Source: an uncultured Poribacteria bacterium (lineage in GTDB: Bacteria > Poribacteria > WGA-4E > PCPOR2b). Taken from it: a DNA stretch of 64,000 bases. Under the pieces are notes generated by a model. That model had not been told where the DNA came from, made no database searches, and worked only from the letters and a program-made list of their open reading frames with translations. A program made the translations under genes and the position numbers. Location: contig OY282444.1 of the NCBI GenBank assembly GCA_958296125.1, positions 2,103,940 to 2,167,939 on the forward strand. Direction: 5' to 3'. Shown here piece by piece: positions 6,375 through 57,730 of the stretch (positions are counted from its first letter, which is position 1; every line of letters begins with the position of its first letter).

Positions 6375-6623
6375 TGATACTTGATTTTTTTAGAACGTTC
6401 AAGATTAAAAAGATTAATTTTAAGCAGGATGTCAGGATTCTTATCCTATCAATCCTCCAGTTCTGATGCGGTTTTTGCTCAAGCGGGCTCGATACCAATC
6501 GAATTGATACCGTTTTCGATAAATTGTGTATTTAACCTGAAAAGAAAAAAGGGGTGGAAATGGTTATAGCCCCATCCCTACCCCTTCAGCCTCTTGTAAC
6601 AGTTGCTAGTACCACCCGAATAC

Positions 6624-6660
6624 TTGACATACTCCCAAACCTAAAGGATTGGGATTCTCG
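6624..6660 (-). repeat. solo TnpB-transposon right end
   Basis: On the minus strand a GAATCCCAAT...TTTGGGAG hairpin ends in TCAA, the same structure that ends the tnpB element at 8412. The sequence continuing to about 6690 also resembles the region inside that element, so this is probably a relic left by deletion of most of a copy. Confidence 0.6.
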
Positions 6661-6694
6661 TCCCCATCCGATAAGCGTGGAATTGTGCGATCTA

Positions 6695-6739
6695 CACGGA
6701 CAATGCTTGGGCTTTACGGGCTAAAGCCCCTTTCTGTAA
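6695..6739. repeat. R4 palindromic repeat abutting tRNA-Leu
   Basis: This 45-bp unit matches 9926-9970 at about 42 of 45 positions. Its centre is a perfect palindrome, GGGCTTTA and TAAAGCCC around CGGGC. Its last base is immediately next to the 3' end of tRNA-Leu. Confidence 0.75.
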
Positions 6740-8387: not shown

Positions 8388-8490
8388 GGGTAATTCCTCT
8401 CTATCAGGTATTTGACATACTCCCAAACCTAAAGGATTGGGATTCTCACTTATTCCTTTAGGTGTCGAATTGTTCTATCAACGAGGTGAG

Positions 8491-8505
8491 TCCCGATTCA
8501 TCGGG
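8491..8505. repeat. short R2-like palindrome at the 3' end of tnpB C
   Basis: TCCCGATTCATCGGGA reads as CCCGATGAATCGGG on the coding strand. The TGA inside it is the stop codon of the interrupted tnpB gene, so the last residues and the stop come from the palindrome. Confidence 0.6.
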
Positions 8506-8527
8506 AACTTACGACCTCTCCTGAAAG

Positions 8528-8545
8528 GTCCGTGCCGAGACCAGG
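8528..8545 (-). repeat. S1 18-bp repeat, copy 1 (inside tnpB C)
   Basis: CCTGGTCTCGGCACGGAC on the minus strand, read as PGLGTD near the C-terminus of the tnpB product. Confidence 0.85.
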
Positions 8546-8729
8546 GGTGGATGCCCCCACCCTGTAGATATTAATCGCGGCGTTGCGATCTCTATCTAAC
8601 TGTGTGTGGCAGCAGGGACACTGCCAAGTCCTATCGCGCAGATTTAACGCTTCATTCACGGCACCGCAAACCGAGCAAGTCTTAGATGAAGGATACCACT
8701 TATCAATGAACGTGATTTTAACGCCTTTT

Positions 8730-8747
8730 GTCCGTTCCGAGACCAGG
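8730..8747 (-). repeat. S1 18-bp repeat, copy 2 (inside tnpB C)
   Basis: CCTGGTCTCGGAACGGAC on the minus strand, read as LVSERT between IASH and KGVKITF. Confidence 0.88.
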
Positions 8748-8854
8748 TGGGAAGCGATATACACTAACTTCTTAACGAAGTCAGCAAACCCTAAATCGCT
8801 AACCTTACGTCCCCAAAGAGCTTTCATGCCTTTAAGGTTCAAATCCTCAAGTTG

Positions 8855-8881
8855 CTCTGAATCCCGATCTTATCGGGGCCG
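8855..8881 (-). repeat. R2 palindromic insert carrying a stop codon in tnpB C
   Basis: A unit of about 27 bp with a CCCCGATAAGATCGGG palindrome followed by ATTCAGAG on the coding strand. It sits between DEI and QLEDLN of the tnpB frame and supplies the TAA. The reverse complement matches the copy in the sulfatase gene at 38.89 kb. Confidence 0.75.
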
Positions 8882-8904
8882 TATCTCATCATACCTATCA
8901 GTGA

Positions 8905-8922
8905 GTCCGTTCCGAGACCAGG
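8905..8922 (-). repeat. S1 18-bp repeat, copy 3 (inside tnpB C)
   Basis: CCTGGTCTCGGAACGGAC on the minus strand, read in a different frame from copy 2 as PWSRNG, between AHQ and LTDRYDE. Confidence 0.88.
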
Positions 8923-9166
8923 GTTGGTGTGCCAACTTCCAGTGGAAGTCCTCACGCTGGTTAGAGATTCTGCGGTGCTGGCGGGCTAAATCCAAACGGG
9001 CGCGTCCCCGATTCTTTGAACCTTTACGTTTGGTGCTGTGTTTGCGGTTAAACCGCTTGATAGCGTTGAGACTGCGTTTGAAAAACAGAGGCGATTCTAT
9101 ATCATGTCCGTTTGACCCTGTGAGATACCGTTTGAGACCGAAATCAAAGCCTGCGATATGACCCGT

Positions 9167-9184
9167 GTCCGTGCCGAGACCAGG
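9167..9184 (-). repeat. S1 18-bp repeat, copy 4 (inside tnpB C)
   Basis: CCTGGTCTCGGCACGGAC on the minus strand, read as PGLGTD shortly before the RuvC-I aspartate. Confidence 0.88.
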
Positions 9185-9528
9185 CATGACTCGGTTTTGG
9201 CCTGGCTCTTCATAGTCTGTCAAAACACAGATATAAACATCACCAATGGTATCCCGTTTCACGGTGCACCGCTTGGGAGTGCCTTGTATCTCACGGGACT
9301 TGAAATAGCGGTAGACCCGTTTCCCGATTCTGATTCGGTTGTCGGATAAAAGCTTCCAGCCCGCCTGTGTCAGCGTGAACGACTTGTATTTACGACGGGG
9401 CTTGAAACGAGGTCTACCACACTTTTTGCCTTGCTTCCTATCGGCAAACATCTTTTGGTAGCCTTTGTCTATCCGGGCCGCTACGTCCTGAACCGCTTGG
9501 CTTGGCAACTGATTCCAATGGGCAAAAC

Positions 9529-9546
9529 GTCCGTTCCGTGACCAGG
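9529..9546 (-). repeat. S1 18-bp repeat, copy 5 (inside tnpB C)
   Basis: CCTGGTCACGGAACGGAC on the minus strand (one base off consensus), read as PWSRNG between KHLP and RFAHWN. Confidence 0.85.
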
Positions 9547-9904
9547 GAGGGAGGTGCTTGAGTTTAGAAAGGTGTTTCATCAATCGAAACTTGCTGATAT
9601 ATTTGCCGTAGATAGCATAGTAGCGACGCTGAAGGGCGACGCAATGATTCCATACAGGCGCGTGACCGTCTATAGTCTTATGCAACTCCCTATTGCCGTG
9701 ATGGTTATACATCTTGAACTTGTAGGCTTTCATTGAATTCGGCTTTCTGGCTCGCATATCCTATCCTGTAGGAGGTAGGGGACAGCCCTAAGGGTTCGGG
9801 AGGCAGCATGCCCCCTACGAATGCCAACACAAGTATATCATATTTTACATACAAAGTTAAAAAAAACGCTAAAGCGAAACTTATATCCCAAGTATACCTG
9901 GTCT

Positions 9905-9922
9905 GTCCGTGCCGAGACCAGG
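9905..9922 (-). repeat. S1 18-bp repeat, copy 6 (intergenic, joined to R4)
   Basis: GTCCGTGCCGAGACCAGG on the plus strand. With the following CGGCACGGAC it can form a 9-bp hairpin (GTCCGTGCC / GGCACGGAC), and it adjoins the R4 unit at 9926. Confidence 0.85.
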
Positions 9923-9925
9923 CGG

Positions 9926-9970
9926 CACGGACAACACTTGGGCTTTACGGGCTAAAGCCCCTATCTGTAA
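9926..9970. repeat. R4 palindromic repeat, second copy
   Basis: A near-identical 45-bp copy of 6695-6739 with the same perfect inner palindrome. It ends 10 bases before a consensus promoter. Confidence 0.75.
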
Positions 9971-21155: not shown

Positions 21156-24100
21156 TTATTTTAGAATCAGCATCCGTCGCGTCGCCGTGAATTCGTCCGC
21201 TGTCAGTGTGTAAAAATAGAGGCCACTAGCGACAGACTCACCCAACTGATTTCGTCCGTCCCAATATATCGCACGGCTGCGACTCTGATACATACCCGCC
21301 GCTCGATGCCCCACCGCCAAACGCCGAATTACTCCCCCGTTCATATCATAAATCGTCAGCGTTACCTCTGCCGCCTCCGCCAACTGATACGGTATCCACG
21401 TCTCCGGGTTAAACGGATTCGGATAGTTGCGATGCAACGCGGTCTCTTCAGGAATCAACGAGGCTAACAGGTTCTGAAGATTCTCAATACCCTCTTTGAA
21501 GGCAAGCGAACCGTCATCTACCAACCGCGCCTGCGCTATCCACGCCTCTATCGTCGCAGCATCTACCCTCCCCTCTTTTAGTGCGAATCGCCTGGTGTTT
21601 TTCGATGCGGTGTCTATCATCGCAGCATCGACCCTCCTCCCTCTCCCCACAGCATCGACCATCCTCTCTCTCCCCATAGGATCTACTATCCCATATCTCC
21701 CCGCAGCGTCTAACATCCTCTCTCCCCCTGCCCCGACAGATCGGGATGAAGACACCCCGACAGATCGGGATGAAGACACCCCGACAGATCGGGATGAAGA
21801 CACCCCGACAGATCGGGATGAAGACACCTGCGGGGGGATTAAGGGGGGTGCAGCAGACGCTGTAGTCTCCCCGATTCCCTGTGACACGAGGATGAGGTCA
21901 AGGACACTAACCACCCCATCGCCGTTGGCATCCACCGGCGAGTTGGCAGGCACCCTTTGCCCCAACTGCTGAGCGACGAGAATCAGATCCAAGATACTAA
22001 CAATCCCATCTCGATTCACGTCCCCGGTTGCCAGTTGTCCCTCCATAGCGATGCGGATTTGATGCGGCCCTGCGGGGATACTATCGCCGGTGACGGAGCC
22101 GAACTGGAAGTTCTTTAATGCCAACTCTGTTTCACCGCCCGATTTCGCCTTGAATCTTACCTGAAGCAGGGAGCCGGTGCCATTTACACCTTGAGAGGAC
22201 AGCCGCGCCGCGCTGAGTCCTGTGATTTTACCCGCTGCGTTATCAATGCTGCCCCCTTGAAAGAAGGTCGTGCCGCTGTCCGCCTTCAGGAAACCGCCTT
22301 CGGTCACGTTAATGGCTTCGAGGGCGGCAGGGTCGAAAGCAACATCAAACTGCCACCCCGCCAAGTCGAAGATATTTTCTGCGCGGATATCAAGGGTGAA
22401 GGTATCGCCCGTATGAATTGGGGTCTTGGAAAAAGCGTAGCCGACACCGGGGTTTGCCGCTGTATATTCGGTGCCGGGTTCAAACCCAAAAAAAGCATTA
22501 TACTGGGCTCTAACCGCAACTAACAAGACATTTTTCCCTTGTTTCAGCGTGACCGGGAGAAAATCCGTGTAATCAACACTCCCATGGTAACGAAGAGACT
22601 CATAAATCAGAGTCCCGTTGAGCCAGACCTTAAATTCGGTATGGCTGCCAACATATAGCGTTTTCACCTGTTGCCGTGGTGAATAAAGGGACACGGTGCC
22701 GTAGAGGTTGGCGTTATCAATGAGGATGGCATCATCACTTCGGCTGTCAACCATCTTTACAACATTATTCCATCCCGTAGGTGGGAGTCTGCGGGATGTC
22801 CACACGTCATCGCCGACGGGTTGTCCCTCTACTGCCCCGTGGGTAGCAATCTCCATCTCTGTTACCGTGCCCCCACTTGCTTCTGATAGTAAATCCGTAC
22901 CACTTTTAAAATCGTGTATTGCTACGTTTGGTAGCACTATCCATAACCACGGCCCCTCTATTTTCGGAGCATCTGTAGGAAAAGCCGGGTTGCCATGCCA
23001 AGCAACCGTTGTATTCTCGCGTAACCCATCCAAAGGCGAAATGTCAGAGATCTCATTGTTGTAGACCCCGAGCCATTTCAGGTTGGTTAATCTCGCAAGC
23101 GGCGATACGTCCGATATATTGTTACCTGCAAGATTCATACGGGTTAACCCGGTTAATCCCGTAAGGGGGGATATATCCGATATTTCGTTGTCGACAAAAT
23201 ACAGTTCTTTCAAACCTATTGATCCCGCAAGAGGCGTAAGGTCTGATATATTACCGCCGCAAAAATCTATCGTCTCCAGTGTTGTTAAACCCGCCAGGGG
23301 CGATAAATCGGATATAGAGTTGTTCCACGAGCGAACCCATTCCAGATTGATTAATCCCGCAAGGGGCGACAGGTCAGATAGACTTTCATGGGAAAAAGCT
23401 AACCACCTTAGATTGATTAATCCTGCAACCTGCGATAGGTCAGATATCAGAGTGTCATGAAAATATAGGTGAGTGAGATTTGTTAAACCTCTCACGGGGG
23501 ATAAATCGGACACCAAAGTGTGACCAAAATCAAGATGGGTGAGATTTGTTAAGTTCCTCACAGGCGATATATCAGATACCTCACTATTATCAACCTCAAG
23601 GTAGGTGAGATTTGTTAAGTTCCTCACGGGAGATATATCAGATACCTCACTGTGATCAATCTCAAGGTGAGTGAGATTTGTTAAGCCTCTCACAGGGGAG
23701 ATATCAGATAATAGGTTTTTGTCAAGCCAGAGTTCGCGCAGGTTGATTAAGCCTGCTAGCGGTGAAAGGTCGGAAATCTGATTCACTTGGAGCTTTAACA
23801 GCTTCAGATTGGTCGCAAACTGCATCCCTGTCAAATCACGGATGCCCCCATCCAACACGTCGAGTCTCCCCAATCTTCCCATATCCGCCACAGTAATCGG
23901 GGCATTCGGGCTTTTGTCGAGCTCCTCCGCAATTGCAGCGCGCAGGTTCGAGTCAGGGATATGAACAACCGCACTCGGTGTCTGTTCCGGTGGTGTTATG
24001 ACCGTCGGAGGGGTGAACTGCTCCGGGAAATCCAACGCAAAAATCACATCCCGAAACCTCGATGTCCACGCGTCCCGTTTCATACTCCCATTCTCACCCT

Positions 24101-33284: not shown

Positions 33285-33345
33285 TGACAGTAATTCGCAC
33301 AAGCCCAATGTTTTCCTGGTCTCGGAACGGACAACATTGGGTCAA
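33285..33345 (+). repeat. TnpB right-end-type hairpin with S1 in its loop
   Basis: It begins TGACAGTAATTC, followed by the arm CCCAATGTTTT, an S1 unit, and the opposite arm AACATTGGG ending in TCAA. The S1-free version of this hairpin exists at 57688-57730, and a close variant at 48883-48930. It lies 38 bases before the left end of transposon A. Confidence 0.8.
33315..33332 (+). repeat. S1 18-bp repeat, copy 7 (in hairpin loop)
   Basis: CCTGGTCTCGGAACGGAC inserted exactly between TTTT and AAC of the hairpin loop. Confidence 0.9.
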
Positions 33346-33486: not shown

Positions 33487-34731
33487 ATGTTAAAAACACA
33501 CAAAATCGCATTAGCCCCGAATAACAAGCAAGCGACCCAGTTTGCCCAGCACTGCGGTTACGCTCGTGTCGCTTACAATCACGCCCTCGCAGACTTCAAA
33601 GCAGGGCTCGATGGTAATGACTGGCGGACGCATATAGACCTTTGTCGCCGTTTCAATGCTATCAAGCATGATACATACGATTGGTGCGGTGATATGTCAC
33701 AGAACGCCTCCAAGAATGCGATTTACACGAACCTTAACGATGCGGTCTCCAGATGGAAGTCAGGTCAAAACCGCTTCCCAAAGTTTAAGAAAAAGTCTCA
33801 TATCAAGAGTTATCAAGCAGATAGCGGTCGAGGCACAACCGCTGTCGCAGGCAGGCGAATTAAACTTCCCAAAATCGGTTGGGTTCGCATGTTTCAAAAC
33901 CTGCGCTACCTCGGCACCATCTGCAAGGTTGTTATTTCTAAACAAGGGCATCGGTGGTTTGCTTCCATTCTCGTTGATACATTCGTTGACGACCCAATAC
34001 CCCTGGTCTCGGAACGGACAGACCCACGCGGCAAGCCTGTTGTCGGTGTTGACGTTGGCATCAAGCATTTAGCAATTACGTCTGAAGGACGGTATTTCGA
34101 GAATCCGAAAGCGTTGCGTCGGTATGAACGCAAAATGAAGCGACTCCAGCGTCGGTTTAGCCGCAAGGTAAAAGGCAGTCGCAACTGGTATAAACTGAAA
34201 GACAAGATAGCCAAGCTCCACTATCGGATAACTTGTATTCGCAAGGATGCCCACCATAAGGCGACAACGGCTATTGTCAAAGGTGCCAGTCGTATCGGCA
34301 TAGAATCTTTGAACGTCGCGGGCATGATTCAGAATCATAGGCTTGCCAAAGCATTATCAGATGCATCCCTGTCATCATTTCTTGAGATGTTGAAGTATAA
34401 ATCGGATGCGATGGACGTAAAGATAGTTGAAGCCGATCGGTTTTATCCATCCAGTAAGACGTGCTCGGCCCCGTTCCGAGGGCAGGCTTGCGGTGTCATT
34501 GATAGTGACTTATCGTTATCGGATAGGACATATCAGTGTAGCGAATGTGGGCATACTCAAGATAGAGACCTCAATGCTGCAATAAACTTGAGAACGGTCG
34601 CCGAGGGACACTCGGAGACATTAAACGCTTGTGGAGATTCGGTAAGCCCTCAGCAGTTGGGGCGCGAATCGTCGAATCAAGAAGATAGCATAGCAATAGG
34701 TGAGCAACTATTGCTGTTTAGTCTATCATAG
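33487..34731 (+). CDS. tnpB: TnpB RNA-guided nuclease with two S1 inserts
   Basis: TnpB of 414 residues, closely similar to the 402-residue TnpB at 56.3 kb. RuvC-I is GVDVGIKHLAI, RuvC-II is GIESLNVAGM and RuvC-III is QDRDLNAAINL, so all three acidic residues are kept. Two six-residue inserts are S1 copies: LVSERT shortly before RuvC-I and PFRGQA inside the first CxxC of the zinc finger (CSA...ACG). The latter separates the two cysteines by nine residues where the other copy has CSAC, so zinc binding and possibly nuclease activity may be lost. The start is the ATG matching the family N-terminus MLKTHKIAL. Confidence 0.9.
   Translation: MLKTHKIALAPNNKQATQFAQHCGYARVAYNHALADFKAGLDGNDWRTHIDLCRRFNAIKHDTYDWCGDMSQNASKNAIYTNLNDAVSRWKSGQNRFPKFKKKSHIKSYQADSGRGTTAVAGRRIKLPKIGWVRMFQNLRYLGTICKVVISKQGHRWFASILVDTFVDDPIPLVSERTDPRGKPVVGVDVGIKHLAITSEGRYFENPKALRRYERKMKRLQRRFSRKVKGSRNWYKLKDKIAKLHYRITCIRKDAHHKATTAIVKGASRIGIESLNVAGMIQNHRLAKALSDASLSSFLEMLKYKSDAMDVKIVEADRFYPSSKTCSAPFRGQACGVIDSDLSLSDRTYQCSECGHTQDRDLNAAINLRTVAEGHSETLNACGDSVSPQQLGRESSNQEDSIAIGEQLLLFSLS
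34002..34019 (+). repeat. S1 18-bp repeat, copy 8 (inside tnpB A)
   Basis: CCTGGTCTCGGAACGGAC between AATACC and AGACCC. The sister tnpB at 56.3 kb reads AATACC-TGACCC without it. Confidence 0.92.
34469..34486 (-). repeat. S1-like 18-bp repeat, copy 9 (in tnpB A zinc finger)
   Basis: CCCCGTTCCGAGGGCAGG on the plus strand, a diverged S1 in reverse orientation (14 of 18 positions). It is absent from the sister gene. Confidence 0.75.
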
Positions 34732-56309: not shown

Positions 56310-57647
56310 TTGACTGCTCCCAAGCATAAATGCTTGGGATTCCTATGATAGACTGAACAGCAATAATTGTTCACCTATTACTGTGCTATCTTCTTGATTC
56401 GACGATTCGCGCCTCAACTGCTGAGGTCTTACAGAATCTCCACAAGCGTTTTCAGTCTCCGAGTGCCCCTCGGCGACGGTTCTCAGGTTTATCGCAGCGT
56501 TTAAGTCTCTGTCTTGTATGTGACCACAAGCCCTACAATGATATGTCCTATCAGATAAAGATAAGTCGCTGTCTACCACACCACATGCAGAACAGGTCTT
56601 ACTCGACGGATAAAACCGATCGGCTTCAACTACTTTTACGTCTGTCCGTTCAGATTTATACTTCAACATCTCAAGGAACGTTGACAATGACGCATCTGCC
56701 AATGCTTTGGCAAGTTTATGATTCTTTATCATACCCGCGACGTTCAACGATTCTATGCCGATACGACTTGCACCCTTGACAATAGCCGTGGTCGCCTTAT
56801 GATGGGCATCGTTGCGAATGCAGGTTATCCGATAGTGCAACTTGGCTATCTTGTCCTTGAGTTTATACCAGTTGCGGCTGCCTTTGACCTTGCGACTGAA
56901 TTGACGTTGAAGCCGTTTGAGTTTCCGTTCATGCCGACGCAATGCCTTCGGATTCTCAAAATACTGTCTTTCAGATGTTACCGCCAAGTGTTTAATACCA
57001 ACATCTACACCAACGATAGGCTTGCCACGCGGGTCAGGTATTGGCTCGTCAGCGAAAGTGTCAACGAGAATAGAAGCGAACCACCGATGCCCTTGCTTAG
57101 ATATAACAACTTTGCAGATAGTGCCAAGGTAGCGTAGGGTTTGAAACATGCGAACCCAACCGATTTTGGGAAGTTTAATTCGCTTGCCTACGACAGAGAT
57201 TGTGCCTCGACCGCTATCGGCTTGGTAACTCTTGCTATGAGACTTTTTCTTAAACCTAGGGAATCTGTTTTGACCTGACTTCCATCGGGAGACGGCATCG
57301 TTAAGATTCGTATAAATCGCATGCTTGGAGGCGTTCTGTGACATATCACCGCACCAATCGTATGTATCATGCTTGATAGCATTGAAACGGCGACAAAGGG
57401 CTATATGCGAATGCCAGACCCCTTCATCAAGTCCTGTTTTGAAGTCGGCTAATCCGTGATTGTAGGCGACCCGAGCGTAACCGCAATGCTGGGCAAACTG
57501 TGTCGCTTGGACGTTGTTAGGGTCTAATGCGATTGTGTGAGTTTTTAACATAGGAATATCTCTCTATCTTTCATAGCCTGTAGCGCAGGATGTGAGGGAC
57601 ACTGCCGAGCGGCAGTGCGCTACTCCCTCACTGAAAGACATTTAATT
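56310..57647 (-). mobile_element. TnpB-only transposon B (IS200/IS605 type), near-intact
   Basis: The right end is a CCCAAGCATTTATGCTTGGG hairpin followed by AGCAG and TCAA (ending at 56310). The left end has arms GAGGGA and TCCCTC around a GCACTGCCG...CGGCAGTG stem (57590-57635), next to a TTAT flank where transposon A has TTAC. No tnpA is present. It lies just upstream of aapJ on the same strand. Confidence 0.8.
56343..57551 (-). CDS. tnpB: TnpB RNA-guided nuclease, uninterrupted
   Basis: TnpB of 402 residues. The RuvC acidic residues lie in GVDVGIKHLAV, GIESLNVAGM and QDRDLNAAINL, and the zinc finger has both CSACG and CRACG. The sequence is collinear with the 33.5-kb copy except for the two S1 inserts there, so this gene is the empty-site reference. 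Like other TnpB proteins it probably uses an RNA from the right end as guide. It may be active, since no defect is visible. Confidence 0.93.
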   Translation of the reverse strand: MLKTHTIALDPNNVQATQFAQHCGYARVAYNHGLADFKTGLDEGVWHSHIALCRRFNAIKHDTYDWCGDMSQNASKHAIYTNLNDAVSRWKSGQNRFPRFKKKSHSKSYQADSGRGTISVVGKRIKLPKIGWVRMFQTLRYLGTICKVVISKQGHRWFASILVDTFADEPIPDPRGKPIVGVDVGIKHLAVTSERQYFENPKALRRHERKLKRLQRQFSRKVKGSRNWYKLKDKIAKLHYRITCIRNDAHHKATTAIVKGASRIGIESLNVAGMIKNHKLAKALADASLSTFLEMLKYKSERTDVKVVEADRFYPSSKTCSACGVVDSDLSLSDRTYHCRACGHIQDRDLNAAINLRTVAEGHSETENACGDSVRPQQLRRESSNQEDSTVIGEQLLLFSLS

Positions 57648-57687: not shown

Positions 57688-57730
57688 TTGACCCAATGCT
57701 AAAGCATTGGGCTTGTGAGAATTTCTGTCA
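57688..57730 (-). repeat. TnpB right-end-type hairpin before transposon B (empty form)
   Basis: On the minus strand TGACAGAAATTCTCACAAG, CCCAATGCTTTAGCATTGGG, then TCAA. It lies 36 bases before the left end of transposon B, just as the S1-filled version lies 38 bases before transposon A. Confidence 0.75.

Follow-up and report, generated by a model that had tools for sequence, protein, structure and literature searches.

A tnpB gene (8498..9757, minus strand) in the window, that is, the whole 64,000-nucleotide stretch of DNA analysed here, from a sponge symbiont (Candidatus Poribacteria), contains six small repeat units. Are these units native to the gene, and if not, how did they enter it, and why did they do so in frame? 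The gene belongs to an IS605-type element and was assigned to tnpB (OrfB_IS605) by Pfam (PF01385, E 7.5e-11), the ORF list, and alignment with paralogues and relatives. The sequence and direct repeats D9 and D11 place the IS element carrying it approximately at 8409..9970 on the minus strand. No tnpA adjoins this element, and its end sequences are common to a short relic at 6621-6739. This 119-bp relic or MITE contains nothing of the IS but its two ends and adjoins a tRNA-like sequence.

A previous sequence-only reading counted five S1 units and one R2 unit in this 1.26-kb gene, and the sequence, ORF list, and pattern matches bear out all six. S1 (GTCCGTKCCGWGACCAGG, 18 nt) runs antisense to tnpB, at 8528..8545, 8730..8747, 8905..8922, 9167..9184, and 9529..9546 on the plus strand. 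Were S1 spread uniformly, at least five copies in 1.26 kb would have P ~3e-10. R2 (CCCCGATAAGATCGGGATTCAGAGCAA on the gene strand, 27 nt, a 6-bp hairpin plus tail) occupies 8852..8878 on the minus strand. As the same reading recognized, R2 brings a stop; the open frame ends at its in-frame TAA, giving a 295-aa ORF (8870-9757). All inserts had also been described as multiples of three. Their lengths agree with this, but they represent one fixed 18-nt unit, GTCCGT[G/T]CCG[A/T]GACCAGG, and one 27-nt unit rather than six independent lengths. Upstream of the tnpB start, a 36-nt nested double unit (9897..9932, plus strand) is made up of S1 (9905-9922) within a reverse-complement S1 (9897-9904 and 9923-9932). 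It was recognized from the sequence and from other loci with the same nesting, and its empty form exists in L090. Such nesting of S1 inside S1 recurs at several loci.

The genome has four further close tnpB copies (L037, L038, L039, and L040; 85-87% protein identity). In their alignment, S1 and R2 appear as clean gaps in some copies and filled in others, forming a mosaic. The S1 at 8528 is also found in L037 and L039 but is absent from L038, L040, and the relatives; the one at 9167 recurs in L038 and L039, the one at 9529 in L037, and R2 in L039, while those at 8730 and 8905 occur in the window copy alone. Other own copies carry S1 at sites where the window copy has none, and 12 tnpB copies from related genomes are without any insert of the window gene. 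An empty homologous site was found for all six S1 sites in or next to the window tnpB, and at least one empty homologue for 96 of the 158 S1 sites at hand. A stricter cut (≥60 nt, ≥70% identity) still gave empty homologous sites for 71 of the genome's 128 own copies. The S1 insertions are clean and exactly 18 nt, with no target duplication seen in the paralogue and relative comparisons, and 18 nt is the commonest length among the inserts that distinguish paralogous segments (60/207). The sequence-only reading had named native TnpB sequence in orthologues as the observation that would overturn it. Instead, for every S1 and R2 of the gene, orthologous sites without the unit exist among paralogues and relatives. 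Judged from these alignments, the S1 and R2 units in tnpB are not native but insertions.

S1 is not confined to this gene. The pattern TCCGTNCCGNGACCAGG occurs 8 times in the window, where shuffles predict 0.09 occurrences, and 129 times in the genome (a chromosome of 5,156,246 bp in one contig), against 0 for a reversed control; beyond 1.25 Mb of sequence, S1 densities are from pattern counts. The located copies number 128: tnpB coding stretches contain 36 of them, a further 13 are no more than 350 bp away, and 79 are elsewhere, including copies in intergenic repeats. A second IS605-type element in the window has S1 in its left end (33315..33332, minus strand; empty counterpart near 57700) and another inside its tnpB (34002..34019, minus strand), the latter accounting for a clean difference of 18 nt with respect to the copy at 56310-57572. 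Five genomes of the same genus have 5 to 12 S1 copies each. Within the 98 genomes searched, one from another family of the order has a single copy, and S1 was not found in the remaining ones. S1 has probably multiplied recently in this Poribacteria lineage. Seven viral sequences match the S1 pattern. Horizontal spread beyond the genus was considered and rejected, as single matches in other species are at about chance level (~120 estimated for 257 Gb). No strand bias of S1 along the chromosome was resolved, as the sampled stretches had too little GC skew for locating origin and terminus. Separately, several loci (L067:5983, L078:5194, L097:9951, and others) repeat an intergenic context in which GGGTCATTTAATTCTTCG is followed by S1 and then GC-rich sequence, with further S1 nested; this context may be a larger composite repeat.

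The unit can be drawn as GTCCG-TKC-CG-W-GAC followed by CAGG, that is, a 5-bp stem, a 3-nt loop, one bulged base, and a tail. The stem part spans 14 of the 18 nt and the tail is unpaired. Both variable positions are unpaired as well, K being the loop centre and W the bulge. Where the outer pairs depart from the consensus, they are fully complementary in 39 of 71 cases against 1 in 16 by chance, these cases not all being independent. Outer pairings among S1-core units were CC..GG (18), CA..TG (10), CT..AG (9), and TT..AA (2). Across 23 distinct S1-core unit sequences, the stem had more paired cells and a higher covariation score than any of 500 shuffles, and it also surpassed every slid version. 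The predicted hairpin itself has little stability: at -0.8 to -1.5 kcal/mol, it does not outdo shuffled sequences. Therefore, it is the pairing evidence, and not stability, that carries the structural claim. Hairpins of the S1 form have the CAGG tail 150 times, the next commonest tail occurring 34 times.

Comparison of paralogous segments revealed further insert units of 18, 21, and 26-27 nt. R2 and several hairpin units of 18-27 nt belong to the same class as S1. One such sister unit, CCCCGTTCCGAGGGCAGG, is present in the second tnpB (34469..34486, plus strand) and has two compensated stem pairs relative to S1. Elsewhere in the window, four 24-bp tandem copies of CCCCGACAGATCGGGATGAAGACA (21731-21850) resemble CCCGAT-type hairpin units. 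About ten 66-bp tandem repeats at 23080-23776 are possibly a leucine-rich-repeat-like coding array.

These units also seem to have a target in common. To the right of S1, the consensus of 52 independent sites in this genome is G (62%), R, N, G (75%), and S (79%). The G at +4 was present at 39 of these sites (P ~1e-12) and at 11 of 15 sites (73%) in the relatives. The 21-nt family has C at +1 in 9 of 10 targets and G at +4 in all 10, and R2-type units have both bases in 5 of 6. It thus seems that a single insertion preference is common to the different units. Besides, the first target base is often the same as the first unit base, which is G in S1 and C in the 21- and 27-nt units. Hairpin-loop targeting was rejected as a rule, since dyad symmetry at the 52 independent sites equals that of shuffles (2.40 vs 2.40), although several sites lie in palindromes.

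What moves S1? Two Y1 proteins are encoded in its genome, an IS200-like one (C1:355745-356098) and a RAYT-like one (C1:4411522-4411848). In general, a short one-sided motif, oriented insertion, and the lack of duplication suit single-strand HUH transposition better than DDE transposition. Since S1 insertion is orientation-specific, duplication-free, and directed to a short one-sided motif, HUH is favoured over DDE. We consider it probable, with room for doubt, that S1 is a very small REP/SDR-like mobile hairpin of exactly 18 nt which is moved in trans, most likely by an HUH (Y1) enzyme. Its insertion duplicates no target bases, keeps one orientation, and takes place immediately 5′ of S-N-N-G (G at +4), wherever this is tolerated. 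The single-strand HUH (Y1) enzyme could be, for example, the genome's lone RAYT-like or IS200-like protein. TnpA-REP enzymes act on a tetranucleotide next to a hairpin, which may be bulged (PMC8266576), and the layout of S1 resembles these substrates. The TnpA of the IS elements themselves is an unlikely mover because the apparent target of the tnpB-carrying elements, TTAC at the left end by inspection, differs. Within this overall probability, an HUH (Y1) enzyme as the mover has roughly even odds.

A dedicated enzyme other than Y1 is nearly as likely. This tentative alternative could be, for example, a recombinase, or a polymerase-based process by which short hairpins are templated into SNNG sites. 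The units speak for this, as S1, the 21-nt unit, and R2 differ in stem and tail and yet share the +4 G target; so does the one-base match at the join. Furthermore, neither of the genome's two Y1 genes was found linked to S1. Against our main reading stand the weak hairpin, the CCTG/CAGG tag in place of GTAG, Y1 genes that are just as common in relatives poor in S1, and a RAYT-like gene bordered by another repeat array instead of S1. On the other hand, no candidate gene for a dedicated enzyme was found, and the combination of tag and bulged hairpin has a known precedent in the TnpA-REP substrates. The RAYT-like gene (L200:706-1980) lies within an array of ~60-bp palindromic repeats and is a candidate REPtron of its own.

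Why does tnpB hold so many of these units? Its coding stretches make up an estimated share of well under 1% of the genome, yet they contain 28% of the S1 copies (36/128) and at least 15 of the 52 independent sites. The sequence-only reading suggested either repeated targeting of tnpB or selection for coding capacity until late. Repeated insertion into tnpB is borne out by the 36 copies found there, but the copies in intergenic DNA and host genes, together with a motif that is not enriched in tnpB, leave no tnpB-specific invader. That tnpB or its IS is an actively preferred target, for example as an element that is often single-stranded, is a possibility that we regard as doubtful. The large share of copies in such a small part of the genome would fit this, as would the antisense orientation of all single insertions in the window tnpB family. 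However, the second tnpB family has S1 in both orientations, the 12 relatives' tnpB copies that were read have none, and just 5 S1 copies accompany the 36 TnpB-like matches of genome G004. A motif-driven preference was rejected, the target motif being rarer in tnpB than in the background. Moreover, dispensability and gene conversion would look the same as preference. In our reading, tnpB copies are the genes hit most because they are many, dispensable, and exchanging sequence with each other.

As for selection, pairwise dN/dS was 0.09-0.16 among the own tnpB paralogues and 0.07-0.12 in comparisons including the relatives' copies. The highest value (0.16) was that of the window copy and L039, the pair with the common R2 stop. 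It follows from the low dN/dS that TnpB was constrained during the greater part of its history; it tolerated S1. In this respect coding constraint is supported, but the argument from the kept frame is not. S1 is stop-free in all six frames, as read from its sequence, and adds six codons. Being 18 nt long and free of stops, any S1 insertion keeps the frame; therefore, frame-keeping by itself is not evidence of selection. Host genes also contain S1 in frame. A PanE/ApbA ketopantoate reductase gene carries it where five orthologues are without the 18 nt, a Uma2 protein gene has two in-frame units, and type ISP restriction-modification genes have tandem in-frame units. Further in-frame copies are present in DUF1156 methylase genes, a TPR protein gene, and others. 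Two paralogous DUF1156 methylase genes (L107:9661-9696 and L108:9291-9334) show different S1 arrangements at the same place.

The sequence-only reading also proposed putting the insertions in order, which the tnpB copies do not cleanly allow. Presence and absence across the five copies form a mosaic with four-gamete conflicts, for example between an L039/L040 site and the one at 9167, so the insertion order is not recoverable from them. Along with the patchy identity among the own copies, these conflicts suggest gene conversion between tnpB copies. Could all S1 then descend from a single ancestral insertion that IS transposition and gene conversion between repeats have multiplied, with no continuing mobility? 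The mosaic would be in keeping with such passive spread, and so would the many copies with common flanks; half of all S1 have flanks common to several copies, and independent insertions are thus fewer than copies. Nevertheless, we consider passive spread very improbable in view of the 52 independent flank contexts, none of them nested, in this single genome, the common target motif, the host gene with five empty orthologues, and the precise empty orthologues of unrelated sites. A native TnpB sequence, an adaptor, or an assembly artefact, for which the shortness of the unit alone could speak, can be dismissed with near certainty given the absence of the inserts from all relatives' tnpB that were read, the presence of S1 in five other genome assemblies, and the stem covariation and target motif.

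S1 shows that an 18-nt unit can be mobile, with a target preference and a constrained base-paired structure, and can enter ordinary genes in frame. The genus may even possess a working system that disperses hairpin DNAs of 18, 21, and 27 nt into genes at SNNG, adding six to nine codons each, although we put this forward with less than even confidence. If true, S1-type hairpins would rank with the smallest mobile DNA known and would keep supplying proteins with short in-frame insertions. One complete genome here offers about 50 independent contexts of insertion, many having empty counterparts, which makes the movement of the smallest mobile repeats (REP, SDR) directly testable. The natural six-codon insertions of S1 could also serve to study what proteins tolerate.

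How does S1 compare with known systems? IS200/IS605 elements of the IS608 type cause no target duplication, recognize a short fixed motif on one side, and have bulged hairpins at their ends. S1 likewise has no target duplication and a fixed short target on one side, but it carries no gene, has no room for subterminal ends, and uses a target unlike that of the tnpB-carrying IS. Similar to MITEs, it is non-autonomous, short, and present in many copies, but it is far smaller and has neither terminal inverted repeats as ends nor target duplication. The SDR of cyanobacteria, as reportedly described by Elhai et al. in 2008, are very small mobile repeats that are dispersed, 21-27 nt long, and precisely inserted. 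By that description, S1 is alike, a dispersed unit of ~20 nt with precise filled and empty sites. It differs in its 18-nt length, its phylum, its compensating bulged stem, its CAGG tail, and its in-frame entry into protein genes. Among the SDR, SDR5 always enters the short target HIP1 at one and the same position (PMC4390886).

Like REP/RAYT systems, S1 has a conserved tetranucleotide on the 5′ side of a small, often bulged, hairpin, at high copy number; its compensatory stem variants agree with such a hairpin, with a weak predicted fold. A small REP has a 10-nt palindrome interrupted by 4 nt and lies two bases from GTAG (PMC8266576). In contrast, the S1 tag is CAGG (CCTG on the other strand) rather than GTAG or CGTC, and the S1 stem is weak. 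REP are mainly extragenic, whereas 36 of 128 S1 copies are in tnpB and more in host genes. Moreover, a RAYT gene is flanked by its repeat, but the RAYT-like gene here has another array and none is linked to S1. Rickettsia palindromic elements (RPE) are 105-150 bp long (PMC2229807, PMC10969869). They resemble S1 as palindromic selfish units in frame in unrelated protein genes (for S1, PanE, Uma2, type ISP restriction-modification, and DUF1156 methylase), but S1, with 18 nt and six codons in Poribacteria, has neither their length nor Rickettsia-type sequence. In other words, S1 works like REP and SDR, and like RPE in its coding insertions, but lacks what defines REP (tag, location, and linked RAYT), MITEs (inverted ends and duplication), and RPE (size). 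Hence, we place S1 as a new form within the known class of very small mobile repeats.
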